From Oscillospiraceae bacterium (lineage in GTDB: Bacteria > Bacillota_A > Clostridia > Oscillospirales > Oscillospiraceae), in NCBI GenBank assembly GCA_017627975.1, contig JAGAFT010000090.1, positions 1 to 16,298 of the forward strand: a stretch of 16,298 bases of DNA, read 5' to 3'. Of this stretch, positions 958 to 11,181 are shown piece by piece. The translations under genes and the position numbers were made by a program. The notes below the pieces were generated by a model. That model was not told where the DNA came from. It saw only the letters and a list, made by a program, of their open reading frames with translations, and searched no databases. Positions within the stretch are counted from its first letter, which is position 1; the number at the start of each line of letters is the position of its first letter.

Positions 958-2487
958 ATGAAAAAAACAGCAAGAATCCTGGCCCTTGTGCTTGTGACGG
1001 TCTTCCTGTTCAGTACGGTCGCCTATGCGGCGGACGAGCCGCGTCAGGCCGATGTCGGGGAGAGGACCTCCTGGGAGAAAAACGCAGAGGTAAACGAAAA
1101 GTATGCTCCGCGGGTCAAGGTGATGGAAAACGGTGTGCGGGTTCAGAAGACCCCCTACAACACCACCGCTCTGGACACGCAGGCAGGGGATGTGGAGAGC
1201 AAGACCATCACGGCCTGGAACAACTATTTCCTCAACGCGGACAACCGCGGCTGCACGGCGTGCCACACGATCGAGGATGCCCTGGAGATGATGGAAAGCT
1301 ACCACGGCATCATCTACATGGGCTATGACACGGAGCAGGGCCTGCAGAACTGCTTCGGCTGCCACAGCTTCTATGACAACTACATGCGCGAAGCGATTCA
1401 TACCCTGCATCAGCGCAACAGCAAATTCCAGGCCATGGGCGGCAGCTGCGAATCCTGCCACTACATTAACCGGCTGGAAGACGGCACCATTGAGTACCAG
1501 CGCTGGGACTATGTGAAGTATGATGTTCTGCGCGGCATCGCGAGCGTTCCGGCGGAAGAGATGAACACGACGCTGACCTGGAACCAGACCGAGATTACCC
1601 CGCATGAGAAGATGTTCTTCAAGACCGTCAAGTCCAACCCCGAGACCTGGGTGACCAAGGAAACCCAGACCTCCCAGGAGGAGTTTGACAACTGGGTCAT
1701 CTCCATCGGCGGCGAAGTCGACCACGGCGGCGAGTTTACGCTGAAGGAACTGATCGACAAGTACGGCACCGAGACCCGGCTCATGAAGTCCCACTGCACC
1801 GTCAACGGCCCCGGACAGGGCATGATCTACCAGGCGGAGATCAGCGGCATTCCCCTCCGGAAAATCGTCGAGGACATCGGCGTGCACGATGACGTGACCA
1901 TGGTCGACCCGGTCGGCGACGACGGCTACTGCTACACCATTTCCCTGGAGAAGATGCTGGAAGAGGATGCCCTGCTGGTTGTCGGCATGAACGGCGACAC
2001 CATCTATGCCGATCAGGGCTGGCCCGTTGCCTTCTGGTGCAACGAGATGAGCGCCGGCAACTTCACCAAGCGTGTCAATCAGCTTAACTTCAAAACCAGC
2101 GGCGCGTCCTGGGACTTCTACGGCGACTTTACCGATGCGACAACCGGTGTACAGTTCGACAAGCCCAATGTGGGCGTGCTGAGCGCCTATGAAGGTCAGA
2201 TCTTTGACCTGGGCAAGCCGGTCCATCTGGAGGGATATGCCGATGCCTGGAACGAGCCGATCGTGAAGCTGGAGTTCTCCTTCGACCACGGCCAGACCTG
2301 GAAGGAGTATCCGATTGAGAATGCCTGCACCACCCAGTGGGTCTACTGGAACCTGGACATCAATGATATCCAGACGCCGGGCTCCTACCTCATGCAGATC
2401 CGCGTCACCAGCCAGACTGCGGACGGCCAGCCCCACACCAACGATGCACCGTACCAGATGACGAACTATATGTTCAACGTCCAGTAA
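958..2487 (+). CDS. Exported triheme cytochrome c fused to a sulfite-oxidase-like molybdopterin domain
   Basis: This 509-residue protein has a signal peptide (KK start, hydrophobic 8-20, AYA-A cleavage near residue 24). Three haem c motifs follow: CTACH (99-103), CFGCH (132-136) and CESCH (164-168). From about 250 to 385 it resembles the sulfite oxidase Moco-binding fold. Cys280 in SHCTVNGPGQG, followed by SGIPLRKIVEDIGV, sits where the family's Mo-ligating cysteine is found, and QGWPVAFW matches the family's GYPxR-like segment. Residues 400-509 resemble the Ig-like Mo-co dimerisation domain (VKLEFSFDHGQTWK, then WVYW and GSYLMQIRV). The predicted product is an extracytoplasmic enzyme passing electrons between Moco and haems; its substrate is unknown. 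There is no membrane anchor beyond the signal peptide. AAGGAG precedes the ATG. The neighbours resB and ccsA are the machinery its haems require. Export before or after Moco insertion is unclear, because the signal looks Sec-type and lacks a twin arginine. Confidence 0.88.
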   Translation: MKKTARILALVLVTVFLFSTVAYAADEPRQADVGERTSWEKNAEVNEKYAPRVKVMENGVRVQKTPYNTTALDTQAGDVESKTITAWNNYFLNADNRGCTACHTIEDALEMMESYHGIIYMGYDTEQGLQNCFGCHSFYDNYMREAIHTLHQRNSKFQAMGGSCESCHYINRLEDGTIEYQRWDYVKYDVLRGIASVPAEEMNTTLTWNQTEITPHEKMFFKTVKSNPETWVTKETQTSQEEFDNWVISIGGEVDHGGEFTLKELIDKYGTETRLMKSHCTVNGPGQGMIYQAEISGIPLRKIVEDIGVHDDVTMVDPVGDDGYCYTISLEKMLEEDALLVVGMNGDTIYADQGWPVAFWCNEMSAGNFTKRVNQLNFKTSGASWDFYGDFTDATTGVQFDKPNVGVLSAYEGQIFDLGKPVHLEGYADAWNEPIVKLEFSFDHGQTWKEYPIENACTTQWVYWNLDINDIQTPGSYLMQIRVTSQTADGQPHTNDAPYQMTNYMFNVQ

Positions 2488-2505: not shown

Positions 2506-2533
2506 ATCCCCTGCCGCTTACCCGGCAGGGGAT
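2506..2533 (+). terminator. Hairpin between the cytochrome gene and resB
   Basis: ATCCCCTGCCG (2506-2516) and CGGCAGGGGAT (2523-2533) are perfect complements around the loop CTTACC, followed by GATTTGATTTT. This is a strong 11-bp stem with a modest T-rich tail. It probably trims or protects the cytochrome mRNA while letting some transcription reach resB. No separate resB promoter is evident. Confidence 0.72.
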
Positions 2534-2587
2534 GATTTGATTTTATCGTATTCCCATCAAGATCAAAAGAACGGATCGTGGCAGTTT

Positions 2588-3724
2588 ATGAAAAAAGCCT
2601 ATACCTTCATCCGCTCCATGCGCTTCGGGATGCTCCTTCTGGCGGGCATCGGAATCCTCTGCATCCTTGCAACCGTGAGCGGGAATGAGAAAATCTATTC
2701 AAGCTGGTACTTTATCCTGCTCTTTGCCGTGCTGGGCCTCAACCTGAGTCTCTGCTCCTTTCAGCGCGTCTTTCGCCTGAAGGATCTGAAGCTGGCCCTG
2801 GTAAAGAAGGCGGAAAACAGCCCGGATGTCCTGCCGGTGCCGGATGCGGAAACGTGGCTCAGAAGGCACCGCTTTGTACGGCAGAATGACGGAAGCCTGC
2901 TGAAGAACAGGGCCGGGTTCCTCGGCTCGTCGCTGACCCACGGCGCCATGCTTCTTCTGATGCTCTCGGCTGGGTTTATTTTTGCCTTTGCCCAGAGAGA
3001 GGATCTGCTTCTGTGCGTCGGAGATACGGCAGAGCTCCCCGATGGGACACAGATTACCGTCGGGGATTTCCGGCTTGAGGATGAAAGCGGCAGGACCGAA
3101 TATCTCAGCGAGCTCTCGGCCGTTCTGCCGGACGGGAACAGCATGGAGGGAAGCGTACGGGTCAACCATCCGCTGCGCGTAGGCCGTTATACCGTCTATC
3201 AGCAGAATTATTCCTACGCCGCGGTCATCGGGGTAAGCACCGAGACGAATCGGGAGGAAGAGACCGTGAAGCTCAGTGAAGCGGCATTTCTCTCGCTGGA
3301 CGGAGAGAACGGGATTTACTATTCCCAGATGTTCGGAAACGTGGCAGAGGAGAACGGAGAAGTACGTGTCTCTCACGGGCAGGAGCTGGTTCACCCGGCC
3401 TATGAAGTCATCGTAAGGGAAGACGGCGGAGAGCAAAGCGGGCTGGTTTACCCCGGGACAACGCTGTCCGCGGGAGGAATCTTCTGCAGCTTCCGCGAGC
3501 CGGAAGCCTGTCCGGGCCTGCGGGTGAAAACGCAGCCGGAATGGGCACTGTGGCTGCTGTACCTGTCTTTCGGCCTGATGACCGCGGGGCTGTATCTCTG
3601 CTTCTTCTGCATCCCGGAAGCGGCCCATGTCAGGGCGGAGGGAATTGCCATCGCCGGGAGCAAGGATATCAGCCTTCAGGTGGCCCAGTATCGTGCCGAG
3701 CTGCAGGGAAGGAGCGGATCATAG
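2588..3724 (+). CDS. resB: ResB/Ccs1 cytochrome c biogenesis protein (System II)
   Basis: This protein of about 378 residues works with CcsA to carry haem across the membrane and attach it to CxxCH cysteines. The pattern is that of ResB: an N-terminal membrane pair (RFGMLLLAGIGILCILATVSG, then IYSSWYFILLFAVLGLNLSLCSFQR, where I-SSW-F and N-SLCS-R are the family signature), a third helix with the conserved histidine (SSLTHGAMLLLML), a large extracytoplasmic domain, and a last helix (WALWLLYLSFGLMTAGLYLCFF). It is on the short side for ResB but appears complete. The ATG at 2588 is preferred. An in-frame TTG at 2537 lies in the tail of the hairpin and would add residues not typical of the family. 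The ATG's ribosome site is weak (GGATCGTGG), so the exact start is less certain than the identity. Confidence 0.88.
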   Translation: MKKAYTFIRSMRFGMLLLAGIGILCILATVSGNEKIYSSWYFILLFAVLGLNLSLCSFQRVFRLKDLKLALVKKAENSPDVLPVPDAETWLRRHRFVRQNDGSLLKNRAGFLGSSLTHGAMLLLMLSAGFIFAFAQREDLLLCVGDTAELPDGTQITVGDFRLEDESGRTEYLSELSAVLPDGNSMEGSVRVNHPLRVGRYTVYQQNYSYAAVIGVSTETNREEETVKLSEAAFLSLDGENGIYYSQMFGNVAEENGEVRVSHGQELVHPAYEVIVREDGGEQSGLVYPGTTLSAGGIFCSFREPEACPGLRVKTQPEWALWLLYLSFGLMTAGLYLCFFCIPEAAHVRAEGIAIAGSKDISLQVAQYRAELQGRSGS

Positions 3725-3834: not shown

Positions 3835-4626
3835 ATGAACGTCTTGTTTTTTGGGATTCTGGTCGTATATTTTATCGCGATGGCACTGCAGTTTGCCGCC
3901 GTCGCCTTCAAAAAAGAGAAGCTGGGGAAGGGGGCCTGGGCCGTGTTCCTGGCTGCCTTTGCCGCCCATACGGTTTATATCGTCGTCCGCGGCGTCGTCG
4001 CGAAGAGGCTCCCGCTGTCGAACCAGTTTGAGTTCGCCACGGCCTTCGCCTGGGGCGTCGCGCTGCTGCTGATCGTGCTTCAGACGAAGATGAAGGCGAA
4101 CTGGCTGAGCGTGATTGCAATGCCGATGACCTTCCTGCTGCTTTCTTTTGCCGCGCTGCAGCCGCGGGAGGTGACGGACCTGATGCCGGCCCTGCGCAGC
4201 GGCTGGTTCGGCTTCCACATCGGCTCCGCGGTGATCTCGTATTCCGCCTTTGTTGTGGCGGGGTGCGTCGGATTGCGCTATATCCTGCTGAGCAAAAAGA
4301 ACCGGGAAGAGGACAGCTTTCGGCTGCAGCAGATGGACTGGCTCAGTTATCGTCTGGTGGCGCTGGGGGTGCTGATGCTGACGGTGACGATCCTGACCGG
4401 GGCCATCTGGGCGGAGCAGGCCTGGTCGGCCTTCTGGACCTGGGATCCGAAGGAGGTCTGGGCTCTGATCACGTGGATCATCTATGTGGTCTATCTTCAT
4501 CTTCGTCTGCGCAGCAGAAAGAAGGGCCTTGCCATGGCCTGGTACGTGGTCATCGCGGTGCCGGTGGTGCTGTTTACCTTCGCTGGCGTGAACACCCTGA
4601 TGTCCGGTCTGCATACCTACGCCTGA
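3835..4626 (+). CDS. ccsA: CcsA/ResC-type cytochrome c biogenesis protein (haem handling, System II)
   Basis: This is a polytopic membrane protein of 263 residues with about eight hydrophobic segments. The tryptophan-rich haem-binding motif is present as WAEQAWSAFWTWDPKEVWAL (canonical WAxxxWGxYWxWDPKE), with Ser-Ala-Phe replacing Gly-x-Tyr. Candidate axial histidines occur in FAAHTVYIVVRG near residue 45, and at the extreme C-terminus in GVNTLMSGLHTYA. The PLSNQFEF stretch is also typical. With ResB it would form the haem exporter/lyase that matures the upstream triheme protein. It is shorter than plastid CcsA or Bacillus ResC and near HemX in size, but the neighbouring resB favours the CcsA role. 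AGGAGG sits eight bases before the ATG. The gene ends at a strong hairpin shared with the convergent tRNA-editing gene. No CcdA or thioredoxin partner is in the window. Confidence 0.9.
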   Translation: MNVLFFGILVVYFIAMALQFAAVAFKKEKLGKGAWAVFLAAFAAHTVYIVVRGVVAKRLPLSNQFEFATAFAWGVALLLIVLQTKMKANWLSVIAMPMTFLLLSFAALQPREVTDLMPALRSGWFGFHIGSAVISYSAFVVAGCVGLRYILLSKKNREEDSFRLQQMDWLSYRLVALGVLMLTVTILTGAIWAEQAWSAFWTWDPKEVWALITWIIYVVYLHLRLRSRKKGLAMAWYVVIAVPVVLFTFAGVNTLMSGLHTYA

Positions 4627-6788: not shown

Positions 6789-9700
6789 GTGAAAGAACAG
6801 AACTATAACGCCTTTATTTCTTACCGGCGGACGCAGCGGGACGTTGCGGTGGCAAAGGAGATCCAGAACAGCCTGGAACGTTTTCGCGTGCCGAAGGGAA
6901 TCCGCAGCGCCTCAGGAAAGGAAAGAATCGAACGGATCTTCCGCGATCAGGAGGAGCTTGCGATTACCAGCGACCTTTCCAGACGGATCGAGGAAGCCCT
7001 GAGAGCCTCGGAGTATCTGATCGTGATCTGCTCGCCGGGGTATAAGCAATCCGTCTGGTGCCTTCATGAGCTGGAGACCTTCCTGAAACTTCGGGGGCCG
7101 GAGCATGTGCTCTGTGTGTTGTCCGAAGGAGAGCCGCCGGAGGTTTTTCCGGATCTTCTGCGGCACGGCAGGAAAGAGGTCACCGCCGAGGACGGAACGA
7201 AGCTTAGCGTCGAGACGGAGATCGAGCCGCTGGCCTGCGACTACAGAGGGGACTTCAGGGCGGCGAGGAAAACAGAGCTGCCGCGGCTGGCCGCGGTGCT
7301 GCTGGGCTGCCAGTATGACGAGCTGGTCATGCGGCGGGAGCGTTATCGCCGCAGGCGGCTCACGGCCTTCTTTTCGGCGGGTTTTGTGGCGGCCGCGGCC
7401 GCCATCACATGGCTGCTCTGGAGTAATGCCCAGATCAGTAAAAACTACCGCCAGTCGCTGATCAGCGAGTCCAGACTGCTGGCGATGCGGTCCCTGGATG
7501 CCTTCAGCACGCAGGACCGGCTGCAGGCGCTGAACGATGCGCTGCAGGCCCTGCCAAGCAAAGAAATGGACCGCCCGGTCACCGATGAGGCACAGTATGC
7601 CCTCTCTCAGGCCAGTTATGCGTATCTGACGCCGTATCACTGGCTGGAAACCTGGCGGATCGACGAAGCGGCCGACATCGATTCGTTCTTTATCAGCCGG
7701 GATGGGAAAATCCTGGTATGTATGGATCACAGCGGACTTTTTCGGAGTTACGAACTTGATTCAAGGAAAGAAATCGCGGCCTTCCGCGTATCGGAAAACA
7801 CGGTGCCCGTGTCGCCAGCAGAGGGGATGGACGGGGCACTGCTCTGCTTTGTCGAAGACGGCTTCCTTGTGTCGACAGATTATAGGACAGGGAAAGAAAA
7901 CTGGCGGACACCGATCACGACCGCGGTCTGTCCTTTCAGCCCGAATCAAAGCGGTACGATGATCGCGGCCGGCGACATCAACGGTGTGCTGCTGCTTGAT
8001 GCGCAAGGCAATGTGATCCGGCGCCTGGCTCTGCCGGAGGGGACGGACGAATATATCACGGAGCTCTGCTGGTCCCCGGACGACAGACAGATTGCCGTAA
8101 AGCTCAGGGGGAATCGCGGCAGCATCGGAGAGTTTGAATACCGGATGGGGATTTTTCAGACGGAGACCGCGACGTTTGTACCGCTTGATCCGATCTATCG
8201 CCGGATGGAAGGCTTCTGTTTCGATGCAGCGGGGGATTTTTATCTTCTGGGGACAGACGGAGAGAAGGCAATGAAAGAGACCGGGAGCGTGACCAGCCTG
8301 ACAGAGGTCAGGCATAGCCTGCACGCGTTTCGGGACGGAGAGGAGCGGTGGCGGCAGCCGCTTACAGCGGATGGAAGTGCCGAGGCGGGCAAGCTTCTGT
8401 TCGGCGGAGAGAAGAACGATCTTTATCTCGCCCTTGGCAGCGGCATCAGCCGCTTTGACCGGGATGGAGCCCTGCTTGGCAGCAGGAATCTCGAACGGGA
8501 GGTTCTGAGCCTTGTTTCCGCCGATGCCGCGGAAGTCAACTTCATCACGGAAGACGGCATGATCGGCACATTGTTTGCCGACAGCGGCAGCGCCACACTG
8601 GTCAAAATGTTTCCGGAAGGTTTGGACCGCGTCATTGGGATCAAGGCAGGACCGCATCAGGAGCTTCAGTATGTGCTGCGTTCGGCGGGGAACATCAGCA
8701 TCTATGAAAGCGTAAGCGATGATTCGTTTTCGGCCTTTGACGGTGAGGGGACTCCGTATCGGCCGGACAACTTCCTGCGCGCCGGGGATCGGCTGCTGGT
8801 GCAGGCAGAGAGGACACTGATGTTCTATAACCTCGAAACACGGAAAATGGAGCATTTGCGCGAACTTGATCCGACAGATGCCTGGCATCTCCTGACGGAG
8901 AACCAGGGGAGTGCGTGGCTGCTGCGCATCAGCGGAAAAGACGGACGGCTCTCGCTTGTCAGGCTGGACATGGAAAGCGGAGAGATCTTATCTGAAACAG
9001 AGCTCCCGCTGCATGACTATTTTACGGCAGAAGGCTGGTTCAATCCTGCATCCCGAACGGAAGCAATTTATCTGGACCGATACTATGCGGCGCCTTCTCC
9101 CGTGACCGTTCAGGGTGAGCTGCTGGCCGCGCATGATCGGGAGGCCTATCACCGGATTGTGCTTTTCCGGCTGACCGACGGGGAAATGCGCGAGCTGGAT
9201 GTGGATGAGGCGATGGGAGACTGTGTCCTGATCTGCGAGGAGAACTCGGTCTTAGTTCCGTCACCGCTGACCCTTTCTCCCGACGGAAAACGGATCTTTG
9301 CCGCGTGTACGGATCCGCGCGACGCAAGCAGGCATGCCGTCCTGATCAGTACGGAGGACGGGAGTGTTACGTTCCTTCCGGGGGCGCCGGACGATCTCAG
9401 CCTGGTCGCATTTACCGAAGATGGCGTCATCTTCTCCGGCACGAAGGAGATCGTTGCCTGCGGGTTTAACGGCGAGCTGATTATGAAAATCCCCTATTCC
9501 GGGGAAAAGGCGAAGTCTTTTGCCTGGTATGCAGGGCGGCTGTTCTGCGCTTATCCGGACGGAAGCCTGGTCATTTATGAAAACGGAGAGGAAATCCGCC
9601 GTGTGCCGCTCTCCTTTGACATGAGCATGGATGTGATGAGCGGAAAGGATTTTCGCTATGAGTTCACTCCGACGAGACTGTATCTGTACTTTAACGGCAA

Positions 9701-9950
9701 TATGAACGCGGTTTCGCTGAATTCAGAAAGCGACACGGCGGTGTACTATGCGTCTTCCGTGCTTGACCGGCTGGAAGACCGCAAAGAGCTGATTGTCTAC
9801 AGCCTGATTCCGGAAAAAGTGTATCAGAGCGGGGAAATGAACCGATACCTCGGCAGCTTCCGGGAATACAGCATTGAAGAGCTGATCGCCATGGCGAGAC
9901 GGCAGCAGGAGGCTTTCTCACCGCAGCGGCTCGAAACAGAGCGGGGGTAA
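6789..9950 (+). CDS. TIR domain - transmembrane helix - beta-propeller receptor-like protein
   Basis: This protein has 1053 residues. Residues about 5-130 are a TIR domain: YNAFISYRRTQRD (the FISYR strand), the LERFRVP segment, FRDQEELAITSDLSRRIEEAL, SEYLIVICSPGY, then SVWCLHELETF. Glu94 in WCLHE aligns with the catalytic glutamate of NAD-cleaving TIR domains. A basic patch RRERYRRRR (182-190) precedes one membrane helix (about 191-211), which puts the TIR inside and the remainder outside. After a helical linker (SESRLLAMRSLDAF with DRLQALNDALQALP, a pattern known from NACHT- and TIR-WD40 proteins) come about 750 residues of repeating strands with SPDD/SRDG/SPDGK turns, indicating one or more WD40- or YVTN-like propellers. 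The start is GTG, preceded by the near-perfect site AAAGGCGGTGAT. It converges with a second TIR gene. Whether it is defence, signalling or self-recognition is unknown. Confidence 0.85.
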   Translation: MKEQNYNAFISYRRTQRDVAVAKEIQNSLERFRVPKGIRSASGKERIERIFRDQEELAITSDLSRRIEEALRASEYLIVICSPGYKQSVWCLHELETFLKLRGPEHVLCVLSEGEPPEVFPDLLRHGRKEVTAEDGTKLSVETEIEPLACDYRGDFRAARKTELPRLAAVLLGCQYDELVMRRERYRRRRLTAFFSAGFVAAAAAITWLLWSNAQISKNYRQSLISESRLLAMRSLDAFSTQDRLQALNDALQALPSKEMDRPVTDEAQYALSQASYAYLTPYHWLETWRIDEAADIDSFFISRDGKILVCMDHSGLFRSYELDSRKEIAAFRVSENTVPVSPAEGMDGALLCFVEDGFLVSTDYRTGKENWRTPITTAVCPFSPNQSGTMIAAGDINGVLLLDAQGNVIRRLALPEGTDEYITELCWSPDDRQIAVKLRGNRGSIGEFEYRMGIFQTETATFVPLDPIYRRMEGFCFDAAGDFYLLGTDGEKAMKETGSVTSLTEVRHSLHAFRDGEERWRQPLTADGSAEAGKLLFGGEKNDLYLALGSGISRFDRDGALLGSRNLEREVLSLVSADAAEVNFITEDGMIGTLFADSGSATLVKMFPEGLDRVIGIKAGPHQELQYVLRSAGNISIYESVSDDSFSAFDGEGTPYRPDNFLRAGDRLLVQAERTLMFYNLETRKMEHLRELDPTDAWHLLTENQGSAWLLRISGKDGRLSLVRLDMESGEILSETELPLHDYFTAEGWFNPASRTEAIYLDRYYAAPSPVTVQGELLAAHDREAYHRIVLFRLTDGEMRELDVDEAMGDCVLICEENSVLVPSPLTLSPDGKRIFAACTDPRDASRHAVLISTEDGSVTFLPGAPDDLSLVAFTEDGVIFSGTKEIVACGFNGELIMKIPYSGEKAKSFAWYAGRLFCAYPDGSLVIYENGEEIRRVPLSFDMSMDVMSGKDFRYEFTPTRLYLYFNGNMNAVSLNSESDTAVYYASSVLDRLEDRKELIVYSLIPEKVYQSGEMNRYLGSFREYSIEELIAMARRQQEAFSPQRLETERG

Positions 9951-10015: not shown

Positions 10016-11134
10016 TTATGCGGTGGGCACGACGGTGACCGTGCTGTCAGTGGTTTCGCCTGATTCCACAACCACGACGTTTTCGGTTGATGGCGTCGGC
10101 GTCGGGGTCGGATCGACGAGCTGCGGCTCCGGCGTCTGAACGGTTTCGGGTGTGGGCGTGGGTGTAGGGGTGGGTGTCGGCGTGGGCGTCGGCGTGGGCG
10201 TCGGGGCAGGGGTAATCTCCGGCGTCGGTGTGGAAGAGGGCTCCACGGTCGAGACGGGTTCCTCTGTGGGGATCGGCGTGCTTACGACCTCCGGCGAGGG
10301 AGACAGAACGGGATCGGGTTCTATTATGGGAGACGTAACGACGGAAGGTTCCTGGGCGGCCTCAATGTCCAGTTCGGCTTCCGTGGACACGGTGGGGACA
10401 GCGGATTCCACCGCTTCCGTCGGCGGCGGAGGCGGCGCGGAAGGCGCCGACGTGCCGGGGTCAGAGAAGTAGTAGTACAGCAGGTATGCCCCGCCGAGCA
10501 GAAGAGCCATTATCAGAAGAACACCGATTATCTTGCCCACAGGGCTGCCGGAGGAAGGCTCCGTCCTTGTCGGCGCTTCTGCGGGGACCTCCTGTGCGCG
10601 CTGGTTCTGCACGGTCCGGACGGAAGAGGGGCGGGAAGCGGAAGAACTCCGTGCCGCCGCGGGGGCGGCGGATGACCCGGGAACAGCACGCCGGTTGCAG
10701 CGCGCAAGCCCGTCGGCGGAAAAGACCTTGAGATAGAAGTCCTCGACTTTGGAGTATTGGCTGCAGTGGACCGCAAAAAGACGCCCCAGGCGCAGCTCCA
10801 TACCGGCGGGAAGGGCCACTTCGTCCAGATAGATCAGAAGGATGGGCTTGTTTTTGTCGCGGGCATAATTCAGCTCATCCTTACAATTGGAGGACGCGAG
10901 ATATTCATGGGTGATCAGCGCGACAAAATACCCGCAGCCCATGATAATGCGGGCGATGTTCTCATCCCATTCCCGTCCGGGGATCAGCCCCTCGTCGTAC
11001 CAGACGCGGTAGCCTGCGCGGTTCATGCTGCGGATGATGGCCGAAGCACGGTCCATGTTGCGGTGGGAATAACTGATGAATATGTAGGGCTCGCTGCCGT
11101 GATAGGAAGCGAGAGAAGGATCTTGATAAGCCAT
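10016..11134 (-). CDS. TIR domain - transmembrane protein with Thr-Pro-rich extracellular stalk
   Basis: About 372 residues. Residues 16-140 are a TIR domain of the common Firmicute type: EPYIFISYSHRNMDRA, GYRVWYDEGLIPGREWDENIA, GYFVALITHEYLASSNCKDELNYA, then PILLIYLDE. Glu87 in CKDEL is at the position of the catalytic acid in NADase TIRs. A Ser/Ala/Arg-rich linker (150-200) leads to a single helix (IIGVLLIMALLLGGAYLLYYYF, about 202-223). The rest is outside: Pro/Ser/Glu-rich, then about ten Thr-Pro pairs, ending VVVVESGETTDSTVTVVPTA without a sortase motif. The ATG at 11134 fits the ribosome site GGAGTGAT better than an in-frame GTG at 11146. The promoter at 11182-11210 is perfect. With no recognisable ligand domain, the stalk may touch the wall, or a partner such as the neighbouring lipoprotein (inference). 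Confidence 0.85.
   Translation of the reverse strand: MAYQDPSLASYHGSEPYIFISYSHRNMDRASAIIRSMNRAGYRVWYDEGLIPGREWDENIARIIMGCGYFVALITHEYLASSNCKDELNYARDKNKPILLIYLDEVALPAGMELRLGRLFAVHCSQYSKVEDFYLKVFSADGLARCNRRAVPGSSAAPAAARSSSASRPSSVRTVQNQRAQEVPAEAPTRTEPSSGSPVGKIIGVLLIMALLLGGAYLLYYYFSDPGTSAPSAPPPPPTEAVESAVPTVSTEAELDIEAAQEPSVVTSPIIEPDPVLSPSPEVVSTPIPTEEPVSTVEPSSTPTPEITPAPTPTPTPTPTPTPTPTPTPETVQTPEPQLVDPTPTPTPSTENVVVVESGETTDSTVTVVPTA
10149..10212 (-). repeat. Six-base repeat tract encoding Thr-Pro pairs
   Basis: On the plus strand this is a run of GTGGGC, GTGGGT and GTCGGC units, reading on the minus strand as alternating Pro and Thr codons. The unit is a multiple of three, so slippage would lengthen or shorten the stalk without a frameshift. 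Confidence 0.85.
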
Positions 11135-11181
11135 GGATACAATCACTCCGAAGGGGAGAGTCAGGGGATTCCTGCCCCGAA

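Follow-up and report, generated by a model that had tools for sequence, protein, structure and literature searches.

The contig JAGAFT010000090.1 of an Oscillospiraceae bacterium (assembly GCA_017627975.1), analysed over all of its 16,298 nucleotides (hereafter, the window), contains a gene, m1, encoding a protein in which a signal peptide and three CxxCH motifs for c-type haem precede a sulfite oxidase (SO)-type fold for the molybdenum cofactor (Moco). m1 belongs to a real, conserved protein family, whose signal cores are, as judged by motif and hydropathy, like those of general secretory (Sec) substrates family-wide. In the established view, exported molybdoenzymes need the twin-arginine translocation (Tat) pathway because they receive their Moco in the cytoplasm, while c-type haem is joined to a chain that is already outside and still unfolded; haem attachment therefore favours Sec and Moco insertion favours Tat, and their combination in one chain forces a choice, in which the m1-family signals appear to say Sec. 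The reading that we favour, with a probability of roughly 0.55, is that m1 is a Sec-exported extracytoplasmic SO-fold oxidoreductase, whose haems would be attached by ResB and CcsA and whose Cys280 would be loaded with Moco after export. The features of m1 are as follows.

958..2487, + strand: m1, trihaem cytochrome c / sulfite-oxidase-fold Moco protein, 509 amino acids
958..1029, + strand: putative Sec-type signal peptide with a long Leu/Val core and without RR, cleavage at AYA-A placed by eye
1252..1266, + strand: first CxxCH motif, CTACH, residues 99-103
1351..1365, + strand: second CxxCH motif, CFGCH, residues 132-136
1447..1461, + strand: third CxxCH motif, CESCH, residues 164-168
1303..1410, + strand: span of three invariant histidines (His116, His148 and His151) that may act as distal ligands to the three haems
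1675..2097, + strand: Moco-binding fold, PF00174, residues 240-380
1795..1797, + strand: Cys280, predicted molybdenum ligand
2212..2448, + strand: dimerisation-type domain, PF03404, a weak Pfam match below cut-off

The m1 reading frame starts with ATG, with AGGAG just upstream, and presented a match to Oxidored_molyb (PF00174) with an E-value of 5.7e-19 (68.8 bits, above the Pfam cut-off of 24), while the match to Mo-co_dimer (PF03404) over residues 419-497 was weak (19.2 bits, cut-off 22.7). In 20,000 shuffles the m1 protein contained zero or one CxxCH motif and never more, as compared to the three actually present. No Pfam cytochrome family matched the trihaem part above cut-off (best PF22113, 19.3 versus 30); with its CxxCH motifs and candidate distal histidines, m1 fits small multihaem cytochromes (c3/c7/MtrC-like). 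The fusion of signal peptide, three CxxCH motifs and Moco fold that a first-pass annotation had read from the letters is thus confirmed by the motifs and the PF00174 match, and the Firmicute setting that it had assigned fits ten genome-contig loci with m1 (L001–L010), all in Bacillota-type metagenome-assembled genomes (MAGs) whose titles name Blautia, Ruminococcaceae, Oscillospiraceae, Clostridia and Solobacterium.

Homologues were sampled as the best 120 of 170 protein-search matches, which together with the query give 121 proteins, and range from 99% to about 40% identity. Clostridia MAGs are among their named sources, as are, at about 40% identity, members of Gordonibacter and Raoultibacter, both cultured genera. 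Three CxxCH motifs are present in 117 of the 121 proteins, two in 3 and one in 1. Residue conservation was counted over the 115 proteins of at least 480 amino acids (six shorter ones were left out); 112 of these contain three CxxCH motifs and 3 contain two, while Cys280, His116, His148 and His151 are each invariant (115/115) and position 371 is Lys or Arg in all 115. Bis-His ligation of three haems would call for such a set of three CxxCH motifs and three further invariant histidines, six histidines in all, which suggests that the haems are bis-His ligated. An FMN-binding domain (PF04205) was found in nine homologues among the best 120 of 170 (P0059, P0063–P0065, P0068, P0081, P0104, P0112 and P0121), preceding the trihaem part in P0059, so chains with predicted flavin, haem and molybdenum cofactors exist. 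The spread of m1 across genomes is patchy: at E < 1e-40, G004 itself was the one genome with m1 among 400 in its family, and 4 of 308 had it in the family of G008, and none of 61 pattern matches in viral contigs was an m1 relative. No paper describing a trihaem SO-fold fusion was found in the open-access literature searched; the presence of more than one haem is no novelty by itself, since a review allows SO-family enzymes to contain molybdenum with or without a haem group, or with several (PMC7759655; here and below, papers are cited from excerpts).

Signals were judged by motif and core hydropathy rather than by a trained predictor, in the 114 of 121 proteins with a clear N-terminal hydrophobic stretch (the other seven were left out). 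None of the 114 N-termini contains the strict Tat motif (RRx-hydrophobic-hydrophobic), so that the lack of a twin-arginine signal pointed out earlier for m1 extends to the whole family; the cores presented a mean hydropathy of 2.62 (standard deviation 0.35) and 36 signals contain a lipobox-like motif. For the closest homologues (48 of P0001–P0050), RR occurs in 1 signal and a lipobox-like motif in 13. Thirteen Tat controls run through the same script all contain the strict motif and presented hydropathies of 1.27-1.73; they comprise E. coli MsrP, five plasmid SO-family proteins, four dimethyl sulfoxide (DMSO)-family proteins of G009, one flavoprotein each from L003 and L005, and a 154-amino-acid open reading frame (ORF) of L010 without known function. 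A fourteenth control, from Aureimonas, stands outside these thirteen, with no signal in the annotated frame. All four DMSO-family Moco proteins (PF00384) of G009 contain RRxFL, while the m1 gene of this genome is cut by the contig end (L010), leaving its N-terminus outside the contig. The L005 control is an FMN-bind/FAD-binding flavoprotein reductase (L005:13947-15959) located 2.4 kb from m1, measured between nearest ends, and its L003 counterpart (L003:18826-20838), known by 88% identity to it, lies 7.3 kb from m1. Since the m1 genes of both loci are intact and encode Sec-type signals, these cells appear to own Tat and yet exclude m1 from it.

The genes following m1 would supply the haem attachment, and the following features were identified there.

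2537..3724, + strand: ResB-like cytochrome c maturation protein (PF05140, E 2.8e-19), with an in-frame ATG at 2588 as the likelier start, by eye
3835..4626, + strand: CcsA/CcsB cytochrome c assembly protein (PF01578, E 5.4e-41; CcsB TIGR03144 above cut-off)
2506..2533, + strand: hairpin of 11 bp followed by a T-rich tail, in the m1-resB interval; putative terminator or attenuator

These matches support the resB and ccsA assignments of the first-pass annotation, which had also proposed a survey of genomes for the same arrangement. Such an arrangement recurs in part: resB is the next gene downstream of m1 at 8 of the ten loci (L004 and L006 are from one MAG), while in L009 the two are about 4 kb apart on opposite strands and in L007 the contig ends 445 bp past m1. 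The hairpin stretch presented a folding energy of -25 kcal/mol (z -4.5), equalled by none of 200 shuffles; the eight terminator-like sites across the region, as compared to a shuffle mean of 5.2, are not clearly above chance. As this hairpin may end some m1 transcripts, a shared m1-resB-ccsA operon is only possible. The same hairpin possibly sets a higher level of m1 than of ResB.

A family profile built from 70 of the 121 members was compared with solved structures and matched SO-fold enzymes, including 2xts and others, with SorA (sulfite:cytochrome c oxidoreductase subunit A) as the best match (E 1.9e-14). Cys280, already put forward as a candidate molybdenum-ligating cysteine, gains support from its invariance and from its alignment with chain position 104 of SorA, a Cys that we take to be the SorA molybdenum ligand. 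The earlier description of m1 as sulfite-oxidase-like holds for the fold and fails at two SorA positions that presumably serve sulfite binding and catalysis: Arg109, located five residues after the molybdenum-ligating Cys, is not kept (residue 285 is Pro, Val, Thr or others, and no Arg occurs in residues 281-290 of any of the 115 homologues), and Tyr236 falls in a gap of the profile alignment, with no m1 counterpart. This molybdenum loop suggests a substrate other than free sulfite. By its aligned stretch, 2xts likewise has no SorA-type Arg, and the m1 stretch QGMIYQAEISGIPL resembles QGMIHNMEYVGVPL of this sulfite dehydrogenase, which we take to be SoxC; around the molybdenum-ligating Cys, SoxC of SoxCD shares with m1 CxxNG and QGMI..E..G[VI]PL, while the SoxC cytochrome is a separate chain. 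SoxC is also the best NCBIfam match of m1 (E 5.3e-15), and it is conceivable that m1 is a sulfite or sulfane dehydrogenase of the SorA/SoxC type with a cytochrome fused on. However, the scores of m1 are far under the NCBIfam equivalog cut-offs for SoxC (55 of 420 bits), SorA (37 of 600), SorT (31 of 570) and MsrP (21.4 of 207), which by sequence places m1 within the SO superfamily and outside these four, and no Sox family appeared in the Pfam scan of the window proteins scanned; together with the missing SorA residues, this makes such a dehydrogenase the least likely of the three alternatives that we weighed. SorA/SorB and SorT are like m1 in Moco fold, molybdenum-ligating Cys (predicted in m1), dimerisation-type domain (a weak match below cut-off in m1), export and a haem partner, but their haem is on a separate subunit and they have Tat signals, as seen in five of six plasmid SO-family controls. 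The statement in the first-pass annotation that haem is usually placed on a separate subunit was matched by two of six plasmid SO-family loci, in which the next gene is annotated as cytochrome c; in three others the next gene encodes a hypothetical protein, as it does in the remaining one, but there from the opposite strand. MsrP (YedY) shares the Moco fold and an aligned Cys at the molybdenum-ligand position with m1, and differs in its Tat signal and in having no haem domain.

Several observations weigh against Sec export with Moco loading outside, and some of them favour another account of m1. Its SO-fold domain might hold no molybdenum and, as in PruR, bind a different pterin, or it might bind nothing; m1 would then act as an electron carrier or redox sensor. 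A weak profile match (E 0.18) to the PDB entry titled 'Pterin Binding Protein' would fit this account, as would the two related MAGs (G001 and G007) in which neither MoaA nor MoeA was found; in addition, G1032 gave no MoeA, MoaA having been searched only in other genomes. The first-pass annotation had tied its proposal to the presence of Moco biosynthesis genes, and apart from these genomes they are widely present: of the relatives searched, 6 of 9 gave MoaA, 8 of 12 gave MoeA, and 9 of 12 gave at least one of the two. The gaps are not decisive because completeness of the MAGs is not reported. PF00384 enzymes are present in 4 of 9 relatives and xanthine-dehydrogenase-type enzymes in 6 of 9, so that Moco there can serve other enzymes too. 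Against a molybdenum-free domain stands the cysteine itself: according to the excerpts of PMC13259868, PruR has Trp in place of the molybdenum cysteine, while the m1 family has Cys in 115 of 115, as expected for molybdenum binding, which argues against m1 being a PruR. We consider a molybdenum-free m1 unlikely, if the least unlikely of the three alternatives.

Ranking between these two is the possibility, also improbable, that m1 uses Tat despite its atypical signal; it would receive Moco inside and cross the membrane folded, with its haem domain kept unfolded until outside. RR near the hydrophobic core in 9 of the 114 signals (including Gordonibacter protein P0099, none of them strict) is consistent with this possibility, as are the presence of TatC in 6 of 9 relative genomes and the Tat-type signals of the G009 DMSO-family enzymes and the two flavoproteins. 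Weighing likewise against our reading, three DMSO-family proteins (one each in G004, G005 and G006) have no RRxF-type motif, so that the Tat contrast rests on G009 and the flavoproteins. However, the strict motif is absent from all 114 signals, 36 of them contain a lipobox-like motif, the cores are on average more hydrophobic than those of the thirteen Tat controls, and TatC was not found in three of the nine genomes searched (G001, G006 and G007), of which G006 has three m1-type genes. Two further points weigh against our reading of m1: no precedent for Moco insertion outside the bacterial cytoplasm was found in the open-access literature searched, and no electron partner of m1 was identified.

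With Sec export and outside loading, the m1 chain would cross the membrane unfolded via Sec; ResB and CcsA, encoded alongside, would fix the three c-type haems to it outside; a single molybdenum-pyranopterin would then sit on Cys280, insertion after export being expected because a Sec substrate is unfolded; and the haems may form a wire between the molybdenum and a membrane donor or acceptor. Two precedents make a Sec route for a haem-Moco chain less odd. Clade II NosZ with a fused c-haem is a copper enzyme without homology to m1, whose metal centre is in any event put together outside, and mammalian sulfite oxidase is like m1 in combining an SO fold with a haem domain, while its haem is b-type and its route is mitochondrial import, not bacterial Sec. 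NosZ proteins with the c-haem motif have a Sec signal, those without both being clade I (PMC8301774, in the part cited), a precedent that would work like m1 in combining c-haem with a Sec signal; for mammalian sulfite oxidase, excerpts of PMC10574614 describe Moco as needed to trap the protein in the mitochondrial intermembrane space (i.e., a folding trap). Pterins have been reported in the bacterial periplasm, where they arrive by a route not yet known and are bound by the SUOX-like PruR (PMC13259868), no enzyme-specific chaperone is known for SO-family enzymes according to the excerpted review PMC10609526, and Sco3746, a membrane-bound haem-Moco protein, is described as requiring both Sec and Tat (PMC5449189). 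The term 'molybd' was not found in the passages of PMC8238504 and PMC11334425 consulted, nor 'sulfite oxidase' in those of PMC11574389.

Some relatives encode a second, haemless SO-fold protein, m2, of about 325-345 amino acids, with PF00174 above cut-off in the two scanned. m2 follows m1 or m1-resB in L001, L004, L006 (the same MAG as L004) and L009, with a SecA paralogue near; coordinates include the following.

L004:2765-3799: m2 gene
L001:4136-5143: m2 gene
L009:11513-12496: m2 gene (others exist)
L004:2765-8351: SecA paralogue block with DUF4213/DUF364, resB and ccsA, holding m1 and m2 as well (also in L006)
L009:3696-12496: SecA paralogue block with DUF4213/DUF364, resB and ccsA
L044:5627-11113: SecA paralogue block with DUF4213/DUF364, resB and ccsA
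L083:1-5279: SecA paralogue block with DUF4213/DUF364, resB and ccsA
L084:1287-5848: SecA paralogue block with DUF4213/DUF364, resB and ccsA

For a separate 130-amino-acid ORF at L009:3123-3530, the resemblance to m2 is confined to the m2 C-terminal domain (57% identity, m2 residues 201-335). Of 12 m1 genomes, 6 have both m2 and a strong second SecA (G001, G004, G006, G008, G850 and G997), while neither was found in G002, G003, G005, G007, G009 and G1032, the m2 negative for G1032 covering 12 kb around m1 and weak second SecA-domain matches in G007 and G1032 (28.6 and 22.9 bits) being left out of the count; the one-sided Fisher p for this co-occurrence is 0.001 with relatedness ignored. The paralogue is 690-725 amino acids long in four genomes, is cut by the contig end in G001, and has an unclear start and 43-47% identity to the others in G850; the other SecA of G008 and of G997 is a fragment. 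Two paralogues scanned fell below every NCBIfam SecA or SecA2 cut-off. Two strong SecA genes were present in 6 of 12 m1 genomes as compared to 20 of the other 393 genomes of a single order (p 3e-5), a comparison that combines different search methods with a hand count and is indicative only; the background, 21 of 394 genomes with two SecA matches at E <= 1e-60 (hand count, G004 included), may count split genes. A background count with PF07517 in 308 genomes was set aside, as weak second matches inflate it and its list of matches is truncated.

Weak hydrophobicity (1.20-1.93) and Gly residues characterise the m2 signals, in most of which KK or KR precedes the core, RR taking this place in L009; the strict RR motif was found in 0 of 11 m2 rows (10 genes), TRRILSG of L009 being a near miss. 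By these features, they are neither clear Sec nor strict Tat signals, and it is our guess that the SecA paralogue exports m2. A wider proposal, to which we give somewhat less than even odds, is that the group loads Moco outside the cytoplasm into a Sec-exported chain haemylated by ResB and CcsA, which would need an export route for Moco, with a dedicated SecA paralogue serving m2. Dependence of the window m1 on such a paralogue was rejected, since neither this gene nor m2 was found within the 16-kb window; it is also unsupported by G002, G003 and G005 (m1 intact) and G009 (m1 cut), in which no second SecA was found. No paper linking SecA2 to molybdoenzymes was found in the open-access literature searched. 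Elsewhere in the window, two genes encoding TIR-domain proteins, at 6789-9950 (+ strand) and 10016-11146 (- strand), face each other, one with a weak WD40-like match; they are possibly signalling or defence genes.

With the m1 family, a so far unstudied class of enzymes, probably respiratory, comes into view in anaerobes of gut and rumen. At least one relative uses Tat for its other exported molybdoenzymes. How m1 is exported is its main interest: c-haem and Moco sites in one chain with a predicted Sec-type signal make the rule that exported molybdoenzymes need Tat (compare Sco3746 in the excerpts of PMC5449189) directly testable.
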